Part shown: piece after piece, positions 2,190 through 35,994 of the stretch
Layout of the letters: each line of letters begins with the position of its first letter
Position numbering within the stretch: the first letter of the stretch is position 1
Source: a virus
Strand: one strand, 5' to 3'
Length of the DNA: 46,825 bases
Virus record (IMG/VR): IMGVR_UViG_3300005289_000059
Coordinates: 1 to 46,825 of that record
Notes under the pieces: generated by a model
The model's database searches: none
Seen by the model: the letters and a program-made list of their open reading frames with translations, nothing else
What the model was told of the DNA's origin: nothing
Program-made: the position numbers and the translations under genes

Positions 2190-2270
2190 TCGACGTGATC
2201 CACCACCTATTGCGCCCTAGTGCGAACCACTGCATAAATGAGGTGTTCTCCGGTCCCCATGTGACCGCCT

Positions 2271-2300
2271 TTGACGCCATCGGGAGCTACAGAGTATTCT
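2271..2300 (+). promoter_or_regulatory. Candidate sigma-70 promoter of the tRNA-like gene
   Basis: TTGACG at 2271-2276 and TATTCT at 2295-2300 are separated by 18 bases, giving a start near 2307. The same TTGACG -35 recurs at 22767 and 27066. It lies in the 200-base gene-free stretch before the tRNA-like element. A small inverted repeat (ACCGGC/GCCGGT, 2324-2341) follows in the leader. Confidence 0.4.
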
Positions 2301-2390
2301 GGTGCTCGATAGTGCGAGATCAAACCGGCCCGAGCGCCGGTGCGCAAGCATTTCAAAAACGGCCCCGCCACATAATCCCTGACGGCGCCG

Positions 2391-2485
2391 GGTATCTGCG
2401 GAAGCGTAAGTCTCAGCTGGTAGAGCTATGGGCTGCTTGCCCAGCGCGCGGGTTCGAGTCCCGTTGCTATCCGCAGATGCCACCA
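2391..2485 (+). tRNA. tRNA-like gene with an extended acceptor stem
   Basis: The 3' end reads GCC-A-CCA. GGTATCTGCGGA (2391-2402) pairs with TCCGCAGATGCC (2471-2482 minus the discriminator offset; 12 pairs, one G-U), and AGCG/TGCT can extend the helix past a bulged A. A normal acceptor has 7 pairs. Inside are a D-arm-like CTC-AGCTGGTA-GAG, an anticodon-like arm GGG-CTGCTTG-CCC (candidate anticodon GCU at 2435-2437) and a canonical T-loop TTCGAGT on a GC stem. The spacing between acceptor and D-arm is irregular and the variable loop is too short for a serine tRNA, so the decoding identity is unclear. It may be a functional atypical tRNA or a tRNA mimic. Confidence 0.5.
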
Positions 2486-3173: not shown

Positions 3174-3533
3174 ATGTCCCCAGCCGAACAGATTGAAGCC
3201 ACCCGCCTGCGCGAAGTCGCGCTCCACCAAGCCGCGCACGACTGCAAAGGCAATTTGGACGCCGAAGATGTCGTGAAGCGCGCGGAGGTCTACCTGGGAT
3301 TCCTGGGCCCGCCCGATGGACATGCGGACATCAGGGTCAAGCACATGGTTGACCGCTTCCTTAGCTGGAAGCTGCCCAAAACCTTCAACCCGGACAATGG
3401 CATCAGCTTCACAAAGCCGACCGGCGTAAACGCGGACGCCGAATGGCCTAGCGGCACGAACCTGCTCGACGCTGACCAGGCCGCCGCGATGGTCTGCCAC
3501 ATGCTGTCCGGCCCCACGGAAATCCGGCGCTAG
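3174..3533 (+). CDS. Conserved phage hypothetical protein
   Basis: 119 residues; AAAAGGAAT precedes the ATG. The C-terminal block DRFLSWKLPKTFNPDNGISF, followed by a segment ending WPSGTNLL, recurs in many phage small proteins and is usually annotated only as hypothetical. The protein is soluble and has one C-terminal helix. A role cannot be assigned. Confidence 0.7.
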   Translation: MSPAEQIEATRLREVALHQAAHDCKGNLDAEDVVKRAEVYLGFLGPPDGHADIRVKHMVDRFLSWKLPKTFNPDNGISFTKPTGVNADAEWPSGTNLLDADQAAAMVCHMLSGPTEIRR

Positions 3534-24791: not shown

Positions 24792-26780
24792 ATGCCCAAG
24801 ATCTTCTACCCCGGCGAGACGCCAGGCCGGGACGGCGTCAACGCGCCTTCACCGGCAAATCCCGCGATCTATCCCATTGGTGGCCGCAAGGGCCGCCTCG
24901 GCCTCACCCCTGGAAAGGGTGGGGGGGCGCCGATCATCGTGACGGTCAATGGCCAGAGCAACGCCGAGGGGACGGGAACGACCACCTCGGCCGTACCGGC
25001 CGAGGTCTCGGCGGCGATGAGCAATGTCTATATCTGGCGCGATATCGCCACGTCCGGCGGCGTGGTCATGGGCTGGGCGCAATACCAGGCCGGGGTCAAC
25101 TCCAACGTCCTGACCCGTCCGGGCTCGCAACAGACCTTCGGGCCGGAAGCCGGGGCGGCGCTGGAGCTTCGGGCGCGCTATCCGAACTCGCCGATCTACA
25201 TCATCTCGACCACGCAAGGCGGCTCACAGCTTGGCGCGGTCTCGATCTACGGTCTGCTTTCGGGCTCGCCGGGTGACTGGGCTCCGGCGACGGCGGCCAA
25301 ATACTTCGCCACCGCCAAGAGCCGCACCGCCGCTGCCCTCGCTGCCCTCCCAGCGTCGGTTAACGTCAGCACGGCCCTCAAGCTCGATATCTGGATGCAG
25401 GGCGAAGCCGAGGCCGGCGCGGGTGACGTGCCGGTGTCGCAGGACTACGGCGACAACCTCAAGGCCTTCATCGTGGCCGCCCGTGACCCATCCACTGGTT
25501 GGGGTCTCGCAGCGGACCTGCCGTTCATCGTGGGCCGCGTGAACGATCCTCAGCCCGCCGCCGTTCTCGGCCGCCGAAATGTCCGCATGGGGCAGGCCAG
25601 GGCGGTCAATGAAACCGCCGTCGCCTATCTGGTCGAGACGGACGACCTGCCGCTCTACACCGGCGACAACATCCACTACACCGGTCCCGGCATGGTGACC
25701 TTCGGCAAGCGCTGCGCCCAAGCCTATCTGGGCGCGGTAAGCCGTACAGCGCCCACCTATGGCGCTCTCACGGCCACGGTCGGCGAGCAGCTCGGCAACG
25801 GGTCCGTGCTCTACACGGTCGCGCCCAGCAACACGCCGAGCCCGACCGTGACCTACGCCCTGCCATCCGGCCAGTCGCAGGCGGCGGGTCTCGGCATCAC
25901 CGACCTGGGCGCCGTCTATGTCACGGACGGAACCCAGCTGGCCTATGCGTCCGGCGCGTCGCGGACGTTCAACATCACCTATGGCAACGGGCCGGGATAC
26001 GGTACCCAGAGCGTCACCATCAACCTGACGGCCGCCGGCACGATCACCGACGTCGCTGGTCGTTGGGCTGAGGTCGACCCGACCCTTTCCGCCTACTACA
26101 CCGTTTCGGGCGGCCTTTATTCTGCGATCAACGACGATCGCGGCAGCGGCAACGGCTTCACCGCCTCAGGCACGCCGCGTCCCACGCAGGTCACTTTTCC
26201 GGGCGCGACCAATTCGAAGGGGATGCAGTTCTCGGGCGCGCAGTACATGCAAGGCCCGCTGCTGTCTTCCGCGGTCACGGCGGACGTCACCCAGGACTTT
26301 ACCTGGGAGGGCGTTGTGGCGTTTCCGTCGTCGCCTACGGCGCAGACTGCAGGCTATCTTTTCTGCCTCGGCAAGTCAGGGACGGTTCCGGCGCTTGCGC
26401 TCTCGGTCAACAACCAGACTGGCGCGCTGAAGATCGATTACCTGAATGCGGCCAACCGGGCCGCCACTTCGGTCACGTCGGCGACGGGTCTCATCGTCAA
26501 CGGCAACGTCCACAAGATCCGGCTGCGAAAGCAGGGGCAGACGCTGCAACTGTTCGTCGATGAGGTCGATGTGACGCCGACCATCGTCACCGCCGTCATG
26601 GGCCCGATCATGATTGCGTCTGAGGTCGCGTCGTCGGGGCGCCTGTTGCTTGGGGCCTACTTCACGGCCTCGCCGTCGCTCCGCGCCACGATCGGCAAGC
26701 ACTACTGGGTGTTCGGCAATCCGAGCTTCCCAGAGGTCGCCTACATGGACGATCAGCTCGACGCTTGGAAGGTGGGCTAA
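24792..26780 (+). CDS. Tail spike with SGNH/SASA carbohydrate esterase and LamG-like domain
   Basis: 662 residues. SGNH-type blocks are visible: nucleophile motif GQSN at 54-57, QGE at 203-205, and D292/H295 in GDNIHYTGPG, matching the sialate-O-acetylesterase (SASA/CE6-like) family. After an Ig-like linker (about 310-420), residues 430-660 form a jelly-roll of LamG/concanavalin type (FTWEGVVAFPSS, YWVFGNPSFPEVAYMDDQLD). The expected activity is removal of acetyl groups from a surface polysaccharide on adsorption. Substrate is not known. Confidence 0.8.
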   Translation: MPKIFYPGETPGRDGVNAPSPANPAIYPIGGRKGRLGLTPGKGGGAPIIVTVNGQSNAEGTGTTTSAVPAEVSAAMSNVYIWRDIATSGGVVMGWAQYQAGVNSNVLTRPGSQQTFGPEAGAALELRARYPNSPIYIISTTQGGSQLGAVSIYGLLSGSPGDWAPATAAKYFATAKSRTAAALAALPASVNVSTALKLDIWMQGEAEAGAGDVPVSQDYGDNLKAFIVAARDPSTGWGLAADLPFIVGRVNDPQPAAVLGRRNVRMGQARAVNETAVAYLVETDDLPLYTGDNIHYTGPGMVTFGKRCAQAYLGAVSRTAPTYGALTATVGEQLGNGSVLYTVAPSNTPSPTVTYALPSGQSQAAGLGITDLGAVYVTDGTQLAYASGASRTFNITYGNGPGYGTQSVTINLTAAGTITDVAGRWAEVDPTLSAYYTVSGGLYSAINDDRGSGNGFTASGTPRPTQVTFPGATNSKGMQFSGAQYMQGPLLSSAVTADVTQDFTWEGVVAFPSSPTAQTAGYLFCLGKSGTVPALALSVNNQTGALKIDYLNAANRAATSVTSATGLIVNGNVHKIRLRKQGQTLQLFVDEVDVTPTIVTAVMGPIMIASEVASSGRLLLGAYFTASPSLRATIGKHYWVFGNPSFPEVAYMDDQLDAWKVG

Positions 26781-26814
26781 CCCCCATCACCCCCGCTTCA
26801 AAGGATTGGGCCGT

Positions 26815-27003
26815 TTACTCCGGCTTGCGCCCGCCCTTCACCGTCATTTTCTGGGCCGCCTCGGCGGTGTCGAGGGCTTGGTCGAGAGCCATGCGGATGA
26901 AGGCGGCGCGGCCCTTCTCGCCCACGATCGCGTCCAGGCGGGCCAGCGCTTTGGCGTCGATGCTCACATGCGTGCGGATGTAGTCGAGGCGCGGCCGGCC
27001 CAT
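26815..27003 (-). CDS. Ribbon-helix-helix DNA-binding protein
   Basis: 62 residues from the ATG at 27003 (MGRPRLDYIRTHVSIDAKAL); a longer frame to 27033 lacks an RBS, while AGGGAGG precedes this ATG. Strand THVSID, helix KALARLDAIVGE and helix AAFIRMALDQALDTAE make an RHH fold with a DNA-binding arm. It is convergent with the spike gene and divergent from the structured RNA. CGGCGCCG at 27054-27061 is a possible operator. Confidence 0.7.
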   Translation of the reverse strand: MGRPRLDYIRTHVSIDAKALARLDAIVGEKGRAAFIRMALDQALDTAEAAQKMTVKGGRKPE

Positions 27004-27065
27004 GTCGCCCTCCCTGTTCGAGGGCTTCACCATAGCGGGCAGGCGTAAATAGACGGCGCCGAGTA

Positions 27066-27094
27066 TTGACGGGTTTTAATGTGCCGTTTATCTC
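27066..27094 (+). promoter_or_regulatory. Candidate sigma-70 promoter of the structured RNA
   Basis: TTGACG (27066-27071), 17 bases, TATCTC (27089-27094), predicting a start near 27101. It has the same -35 and spacing as the promoter at 22767. The palindrome CGGCGCCG (27054-27061) abuts it upstream, so the neighbouring RHH protein could regulate it. Confidence 0.5.
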
Positions 27095-27100
27095 TAGCGC

Positions 27101-27420
27101 TTCCTCGCCACTGCCGCGCGCGAGCGCCGTACCCGAGCAGTGCTGACCGTCGTAGTCGGTCCGAGGCAGTCATCCCGTGCGAACGGGGAGGGTTGATGGA
27201 AGCTCCTCGAGATGGGGCAACCGGACTTCCCCTAGTAGGCCAGTCCCGAGGCGGTTCGGTGACCACTAGGTGCGGGGTGTAACCGCATCAGAGGCCTAGG
27301 CCGCGCCGGGGTGAAATCCTCCGGCACCCCTCACTCACGGTTAACGGCCCAATCCGCTGCCCTACCAACCGCGGCTGACCATCAGGCTCGGACGGTGTTT
27401 GCCGCACCGCCCGAGCCCTT
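27101..27420 (+). ncRNA. Candidate structured non-coding RNA
   Basis: About 320 bases with no convincing ORF. Helices seen by eye: GACCG/CGGTC with a 7-base loop (27145-27161); CCCGT/ACGGG closed by a GCGA tetraloop (27174-27187); GGGG/CCCC (27214-27232); CCTAGT/ACTAGG (27231-27270); TGCGG/CCGCA with a 7-base loop (27271-27287); GGGGTG/CACCCC (27274-27330); GCCGGGG/CCTCCGGC (27305-27325). Some are mutually exclusive, as in a switching RNA. It ends at GGCTCGG-A-CGGTG / CACCG-C-CCGAGCC (27385-27417), a terminator-like hairpin without a U-run. No known RNA family was recognised. Confidence 0.4.
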
Positions 27421-27488
27421 CCCACCGGATGGGCCGGCGAGAGCCTGATCAGGCGCCGCGTTCCTCCTCCACAGCAGAGCTAGAGTCA

Positions 27489-27551
27489 ATGAAGGGAGTG
27501 GCGATGGGCGCCTCGTTCTCGGTAACGCTACATGCGCGCGGGTGTTCCTGA
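27489..27551 (+). CDS. 20-codon leader ORF coupled to the holin
   Basis: The ORF starts at ATG 27489 and its stop overlaps the holin start (TGATG). The holin ATG has no Shine-Dalgarno of its own, so translation through this ORF may set holin timing. An internal ATG at 27504 has GGGAG at better spacing. A perfect palindrome GCCTGATCAGGC (27443-27454) lies upstream. Confidence 0.3.
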   Translation: MKGVAMGASFSVTLHARGCS

Positions 27552-35460: not shown

Positions 35461-35673
35461 CCCCGGCGGCCAGTTGTGAGTTAAGTCGAAGGGGTTTCCC
35501 GCCAAGGATTTGGCCCCTACGACGAATAGGTGGTGGAGTCGGGGGTGTTCAAGCGCCTCTGGCCCGCAGCATCAGTACCGCGTACGGGGCGGCAAGCGCT
35601 GGAATAACGCCGAGTTGGCCTTCGGGCTGGCAGCGCCCTTCACGGGCGTGGGACAGGCGCCAGGGGCCGCCCC
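35461..35673. other. Gene-free stretch between tRNA-like RNA and zinc protein
   Basis: About 210 bases without a convincing gene. It has several GC hairpins, the clearest being CGCCC-TTCAC-GGGCG at 35634-35648, which could end the tRNA-like transcript or the leftward gene to its right. Nothing else was recognised. Confidence 0.4.
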
Positions 35674-35994
35674 TCACTTCCTCCAAGTCCATACCGCATC
35701 TCTCACTAGATGTGCTGAGACCGAGACAAAACCGGCCGGCGCTCCGCAGCGAGAGCACCGAAACGCCCCGCTTTCGGCGAGATCCTGAAGCGTCCGCTCC
35801 CTCCACGGTCCAGGCCTTGAGCAATCCAGCTCACGCCCAGGGCATCGGTTCACGCACCAGATATAGACGCTATGGCCTTCGCGGGTGCAGTCGGAGGGGG
35901 TGAGGGCGTCGGACACGTCTCCTATATGCGACGCCGCGGAAAACGGGTCACGCCCCAGTTTCGCCCCAGATTGATCGCAACCAAACGCGAACAC
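35674..35994 (-). CDS. Cysteine-rich zinc-ribbon-like protein
   Basis: 106 residues as an open frame; the coding-like part begins around VYIWCVNRCPGRELDC (residue 43 on) and includes LAESGAFRCSRCGAPAGFVS. CxxxC and CxxC pairs suggest zinc binding. The real start may be downstream of 35994, because the first 40 residues overlap the left attP arm sites. No family was recognised. Confidence 0.5.
   Translation of the reverse strand: MFAFGCDQSGAKLGRDPFSAASHIGDVSDALTPSDCTREGHSVYIWCVNRCPGRELDCSRPGPWRERTLQDLAESGAFRCSRCGAPAGFVSVSAHLVRDAVWTWRK

Follow-up and report, generated by a model that had tools for sequence, protein, structure and literature searches.

A putative two-domain RNA gene as cargo of a putatively RHH-controlled cassette in a Caulobacter-type phage

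In the immI region of phage P22 (mnt-arc-ant, with the sar RNA), two repressors, Mnt and Arc, control the antirepressor protein Ant; the sar RNA is antisense to ant. Both Mnt and Arc are ribbon-helix-helix (RHH) proteins. A different kind of phage RNA is GOLLD, which is in part phage-borne. GOLLD and ROOL are structured (ornate) non-coding RNAs of bacteria (PMC12286853). Lambdoid prophages also encode small RNAs, the AgvB/EcOnc family, at the variable sites where morons insert in temperate phages (PMC4104026). Here we analyzed a 46,825-nt DNA stretch of the IMG/VR virus record IMGVR_UViG_3300005289_000059 (hereafter, the window), in which a tail gene is separated from the lysis genes by a gene for a putative RHH regulator and, divergent to it, a non-coding stretch. 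It is rather probable that this stretch is the RNA gene of a two-gene, RHH-repressed phage moron, a moron being cargo inserted into the late region and equipped with promoters of its own.

P22 immI is comparable to such an RHH-repressed moron with RNA cargo, but the cassette described here has one RHH gene and no ant-like protein, and the RNA itself occupies the cargo slot. No credible protein gene that could be the counterpart of ant under Mnt/Arc control was found in the cargo slot of the window. The likeness to AgvB/EcOnc consists in a small RNA at a phage moron site. However, the latter RNAs are unusually short and bind Hfq, and no dedicated RHH regulator is described for them in PMC4104026, whereas the RNA analyzed here is longer and has a multi-domain fold. 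Resemblance to GOLLD, proposed in a preliminary description of the region, was not borne out, since the RNA is much smaller than GOLLD and ROOL, no shared motif was found, and the GOLLD model gave no match in full Rfam scans of the region.

Cassette organization, empty sites, and cargo

No credible open reading frame (ORF) was found in the gap of roughly 510 nt at positions 27034-27541. The preliminary description had placed a non-coding element at 27066-27420; its non-coding nature was confirmed, but not its limits, because the real unit is the cassette at 26803-27355, which includes the RHH gene (Table 1). The relative phage L002 and Caulobacter phage DMCA carry no RHH gene and no RNA at this tail/lysis junction, where just about 86 nt separate the flanking genes; in the window the tail gene and the downstream gene are about 760 nt apart. 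Therefore, the RHH gene and the non-coding stretch represent an insert. An insert found here but missing from the equivalent junction of relatives is what characterizes a moron.

Related cassettes were identified in seven other loci (L003, L004, L005, L006, L077, L082, and L107), one of which, L005, is cut off by the contig end, and another, L107, belongs to a bacterial genome from the family of G048. The six complete loci have the same architecture as the window. Complete cassettes start with an end repeat that reads TAAACGGCCC in the direction leading away from the RHH stop codon, followed by the RHH gene and the block TAAATAGACGGCGCC. A second motif, GGGCCG(TTTA), is located at the cargo promoter; after the cargo comes an end repeat with the form TAAACGGCCCAATC. 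The motif is found at both ends and in the control region. The cargo is the same RNA in L006 and protein genes in the other five complete cassettes; the cargo genes of L003, L004, L077, and L082 had almost no family matches. The RHH gene, correctly described earlier as divergent to the element, and its control region therefore accompany both RNA and protein cargo. The 16-base control-block pattern also matched L074, L075, and L076, where no such cassette was seen.

The end repeat of the cassette was the only 16-nt inverted repeat found in the window with at most one mismatch and a spacing of 300-900 nt. In L004 the left repeat (about 3215-3235, read on the - strand) has the orientation opposite to that in other cassettes, which results in direct repeats at the ends; therefore, the repeats need not be transposon ends. 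A C-rich stretch follows the gene preceding the cassette in nearly all loci, and its G-rich complement (GTGGGGG or GAGGGGG) follows the cassette in five loci, while the right half is missing in the window. The cassette may therefore occupy the loop of what was once a hairpin.

The putative regulator scored 18.3 bits against the Pfam family RHH_1 (E 0.002), slightly below the cut-off of 20.5, and had a weak sequence similarity to the CopG-family protein 7by2 (E 0.68); five relatives could be aligned. A second, different RHH gene is located in L006 at 2212-2445 (+), directly past the right end of the cassette and beside an integrase-like gene. A distant RHH relative with 40% identity was found in Pseudanabaena phage Pam5 (ON014757.1; L086, 2001-2174). 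It is a solitary divergent gene flanked by a transglycosylase gene and a late gene of 1.1 kb, a similar position in an unrelated phage.

The control block upstream of the RHH gene is identical in the window, L003, L004, L006, L077, and L107, and differs by two changes in L082. One copy of the motif immediately precedes the RHH start and another covers the cargo -10, so that each of the two divergent promoters has one. Together with the divergent genes, such an arrangement is what one would expect of a repressor with autoregulation that silences its partner as well. The region TAGACGGCGCC...GCCGTTTA holds the proposed RHH binding sites, and GCCGTTTA over the cargo -10 is proposed as a second RHH operator. 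This circumstantial evidence suggests that RHH may bind the repeated motif at both promoters and repress them.

A consensus-like promoter had been reported upstream of the RNA. Its -35 element TTGACGG at 27066 perfectly matches the published Caulobacter RpoD consensus TTGaCgS (PMC8144410), but the -10 element TTTATCTC is only a partial match to GCTANAWC, and the site was missing from the output of a sigma-70 scan. As the own promoter expected of a moron, the site is a candidate with a fitting -35 and a partial -10. The TTGACG -35 is present in both RNA cassettes (window and L006) and in none of the five protein cassettes, which carry a CGGCGTATA-like sequence at this position, or CGGCATATT in L082.

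Second copy and fold of the RNA

The RNA extends over approximately 27098-27330 and accounts for one half of the cassette. Its copy in L006 was reached by two independent routes, through the RHH protein and through an RNA motif. Both RNA domains are 84% identical between the window and L006, which exceeds the 78% identity of the RHH gene. Substitutions in the RHH gene are concentrated at third codon positions (25, versus 13 and 10 at the others), whereas in the RNA they are evenly distributed over the three reading-frame classes (16/17/20).

In domain 1 compensatory changes were found at 27112-27139 and 27118-27125. In domain 2 all 35 of 35 pairs are kept and four changed on both sides; a control with partners slid along the sequence gave no two-sided changes. 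RNAalifold applied to both sequences predicted a fold of 72 pairs, 62 of them unchanged, with three one-sided, seven two-sided changes and none broken, although this consensus was picked using both sequences, a bias in its favor. Its energy (z -4.3) was not reached by any of 300 shuffles that preserved which columns were conserved and which were variable. A test with less bias relies on the pairs predicted from the window alone: six of them showed two-sided changes in L006 versus 1.7 expected (P 0.003), and 17 were broken versus 25 expected (P 0.009). Examples of compensation from the window to L006 are CCGA-GGCGGU-UCGG to GCGC-GGCGGU-GCGC and UGCGG-GGUGUAA-CCGCA to CGCCG-GGUGUGA-CGGCG. The GNRA hairpin CCCGU-GCGA-ACGGG is present at 27174-27187, as are two hairpins with 7-nt loops, GACCG-UCGUAGU-CGGUC and UGCGG-GGUGUAA-CCGCA. 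These comparisons support a structured RNA conserved between the two copies. It is probably encoded on the + strand, judging by the promoter and by the direction of the cargo in the other cassettes.

The L006 copy contains a stretch of about 191-195 extra nt (2672-2866, -) inside the RNA, with several short GC-rich hairpins (fold z -1.0) and no database match of note.

Searches for known families and further copies gave little. Rfam 15 at the gathering threshold had no match in the region, either in the window or in L006, and only chance-level matches appeared there at a relaxed E-value. An RNase P-like string noticed by eye on the minus strand was likewise not found by Rfam. BLASTN of the region against phages and plasmids returned no match, and that of the L006 copy returned one chance match of 34 nt. 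The covariance model R1 scored 193 bits in the window and 190 bits in L006, and nothing comparable elsewhere. Across 390 genomes of the family of G048 its matches did not exceed 25 bits and kept few conserved blocks, which was regarded as noise, since a reverse-strand match inside L006 itself reached 19 bits. No third copy was found in viral contigs with domain 2 patterns. A gapped motif searched in one genome per species (84,980 species) yielded 32 stretches with nothing in common outside the motif, and in 398 genomes of the order of G001, searched at the DNA level, only weak fragments turned up, mostly of the RHH gene. The RNA thus appears to be rare, fast evolving, or both.

Overall, the earlier proposal of a structured RNA with its own promoter is supported by the L006 copy, compensatory pairs (covariation between homologues, in one pairwise comparison), the lack of codon periodicity, the absence of an Rfam match, and a -35 confined to the two RNA cassettes and accompanied by a partial -10.

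Flanking genes and neighboring features

Coordinates of the features are listed in Table 1. The gene preceding the cassette in L006 resembles, by eye, another esterase-type tail protein. The membrane-protein gene downstream of the cassette had been described as a holin. Family searches with it gave no match, and this identity is suggested solely by the Phage_lysozyme gene that follows it. It is 71% identical to a gene of Caulobacter phage DMCA, which, together with the other relatives, points to a Caulobacter-type phage.

The 12-pair hairpin, earlier thought to close the RNA, does exist, but it lies outside the cassette and is not conserved: it was not kept in L006 or L003, where unrelated hairpins occur, as they do in the cassette-less L002. 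It was regarded as phage backbone and may be a transcription terminator that has no U tract; as the own terminator expected of a moron it is a candidate at most, given its place outside the cassette. For the 186 nt after the cassette that hold it (27356-27541) no relative was found. The sole Rfam match in the window was a DUF3800-VII RNA (RF02967, 58.2 bits) at 35587-35677 (+).

Table 1. Positions of the cassette, its parts and adjoining features in the window
Feature	Coordinates	Strand	Description
Tail gene	24792-26780	+	Precedes cassette; SASA carbohydrate-esterase domain
Whole cassette	26803..27355		553 bp; RHH gene, divergent control region and RNA cargo, bounded by inverted repeats
Left end repeat	26803..26818	-	GGATTGGGCCGTTTAC (TAAACGGCCCAATCC on - strand); begins at RHH stop codon
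Putative RHH (CopG/Arc/MetJ-type) regulator	26815..27033	-	72 aa, or 62 aa from internal MGRPRLDY start
Control block	27045..27060	+	GTAAATAGACGGCGCC; just upstream of RHH start; proposed operator for RHH gene
Putative RNA promoter	27066..27094	+	-35 TTGACGG; -10-like TTTATCTC; GCCGTTTA (end-repeat core) overlaps -10
RNA domain 1	27098..27170	+	CCUCG/CGAGG closing helix round CACUGC/GCAGUG arm and GACCG/CGGUC arm
Junction	27167..27172	+	Site of ~191 extra nt in L006
RNA domain 2	27172..27325	+	GNRA hairpin; GG-AA-GCUC/GGGC-AA-CC arm; CCUAGUaGG/CCACUAGG helix with internal hairpin
RNA domain 2, further elements	27172..27325	+	GGUGUAA-loop hairpin; GCCGGGG-UGAAAU-CCUCCGGC hairpin
28-codon ORF	27196..27282	+	Inside domain 2; Shine-Dalgarno-like GGAGG; MEAPRDGATGLPLVGQSRGGSVTTRCGV
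Right end repeat	27340..27355	+	GTTAACGGCCCAATCC
GC-rich 12-pair hairpin	27385-27417	+	Starts 30 nt past cassette right end; no U tract

Proposed role and alternative explanations

In the proposed mechanism, the RHH protein would bind the TA(A/G)ACGGCCC-type sites that recur in the control region between the divergent genes and repress both its own gene and the cargo promoter, thereby setting the timing of cargo production. The cargo slot, filled with small protein genes in most related phages, would hold a non-coding RNA of about 230-450 nt with two domains in this phage and in L006, transcribed from the TTGACG promoter. This RNA would probably act in trans on host or phage RNA or protein, serving as cargo for lysogeny or an infection stage rather than as a control element of the adjoining lysis genes; it is read as trans-acting cargo in view of the layout of the two promoters and of the small RNAs known from moron sites of prophages (PMC4104026). 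A further step, which we regard as possible yet doubtful, is that this is a new family of two-domain phage RNAs, an interchangeable equivalent of a protein gene in RHH-controlled cassettes, with a direct effect in trans on the host such as decoying or inhibiting a defence or RNA-binding system.

Several observations weigh against this interpretation. The single-sequence fold of the + strand is ordinary, with z of -0.8 to -1.2 for 27040-27545, 27096-27420, and 27090-27345, so that the at least seven GC-rich helices reported earlier are present at their places, but not above chance on one sequence. In the minimum-energy fold of the window alone 17 of 85 pairs are broken in L006, and the single-sequence folds of the two copies have only 12 pairs in common. 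RNAalifold scored the reverse strand equal to the forward one (z -4.3 for both), and the RHH_1 score of the regulator is slightly under the Pfam cut-off. Only two copies of the RNA are available, so the covariation is one pairwise comparison, which is unable to settle individual helices, with competing ones in domain 2. It is nevertheless quite unlikely that the shared fold arose by chance from the 84% identity of two GC-rich sequences conserved for another reason. Besides the single-sequence z near -1 and the number of sequences, this explanation is favored by 21 of 300 shuffles that equaled the observed number of two-sided changes; against it stand the consensus energy, which no shuffle reached, and the loss of all four two-sided changes in domain 2 upon sliding the partners.

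The cargo could also be a short coding gene, represented by the 28-codon ORF, or a dual-function mRNA. The GGAGG and ATG of this ORF are fully conserved in L006, the stop position is the same (TAA versus TGA), and other cassettes hold protein genes. However, the 13 changed codons comprise 10 nonsynonymous and 3 synonymous ones, with 9/3/6 substitutions at positions 1/2/3, which is not protein-like; because of this preponderance of nonsynonymous changes the ORF is probably not a protein gene. Conservation is not confined to the ORF but includes domain 1 and the hairpins downstream, and the stop codon falls inside a hairpin loop, making a coding function unlikely. Apart from this frame, which looks unselected, no conserved ORF was found, in line with the earlier statement that no ORF fits. 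A cis-acting leader or attenuator that sets lysis timing, as the preliminary description had suggested, would agree with the same-strand location of the RNA ahead of the putative holin gene and with the mutual exclusivity of some helices. It is very unlikely, since the cassette ends about 186 nt before that gene, L002 and DMCA keep the gene without any cassette, protein cargo takes the place of the RNA in relatives, and the L006 cassette is followed by the second RHH gene and the integrase gene instead. Equally improbable is a DNA element (for recombination, packaging or attachment) or the remnant of a gene that decayed recently, with conservation owed to a role of the DNA itself. The inverted repeats at both ends, the existence of only two copies and the integrase gene near the L006 cassette would fit it, but two-sided helix changes with nearly constant loops are a prediction of RNA pairing, and five protein cassettes with the same ends have none of the RNA sequence. 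The attachment-site version was dropped because about 10 kb separate the region from the integrase gene in the window.

Searches of phage cargo slots usually aim at proteins. Here an RNA and several proteins interchange in a slot whose repressor and end repeats stay the same, which suggests that the RNA is carried for its own effect. The combination of the RHH gene, the TAAATAGACGGCGCC block, and TAAACGGCCCAATCC ends provides a signature that may be used to search for more protein or RNA cargo in phages of Caulobacterales.
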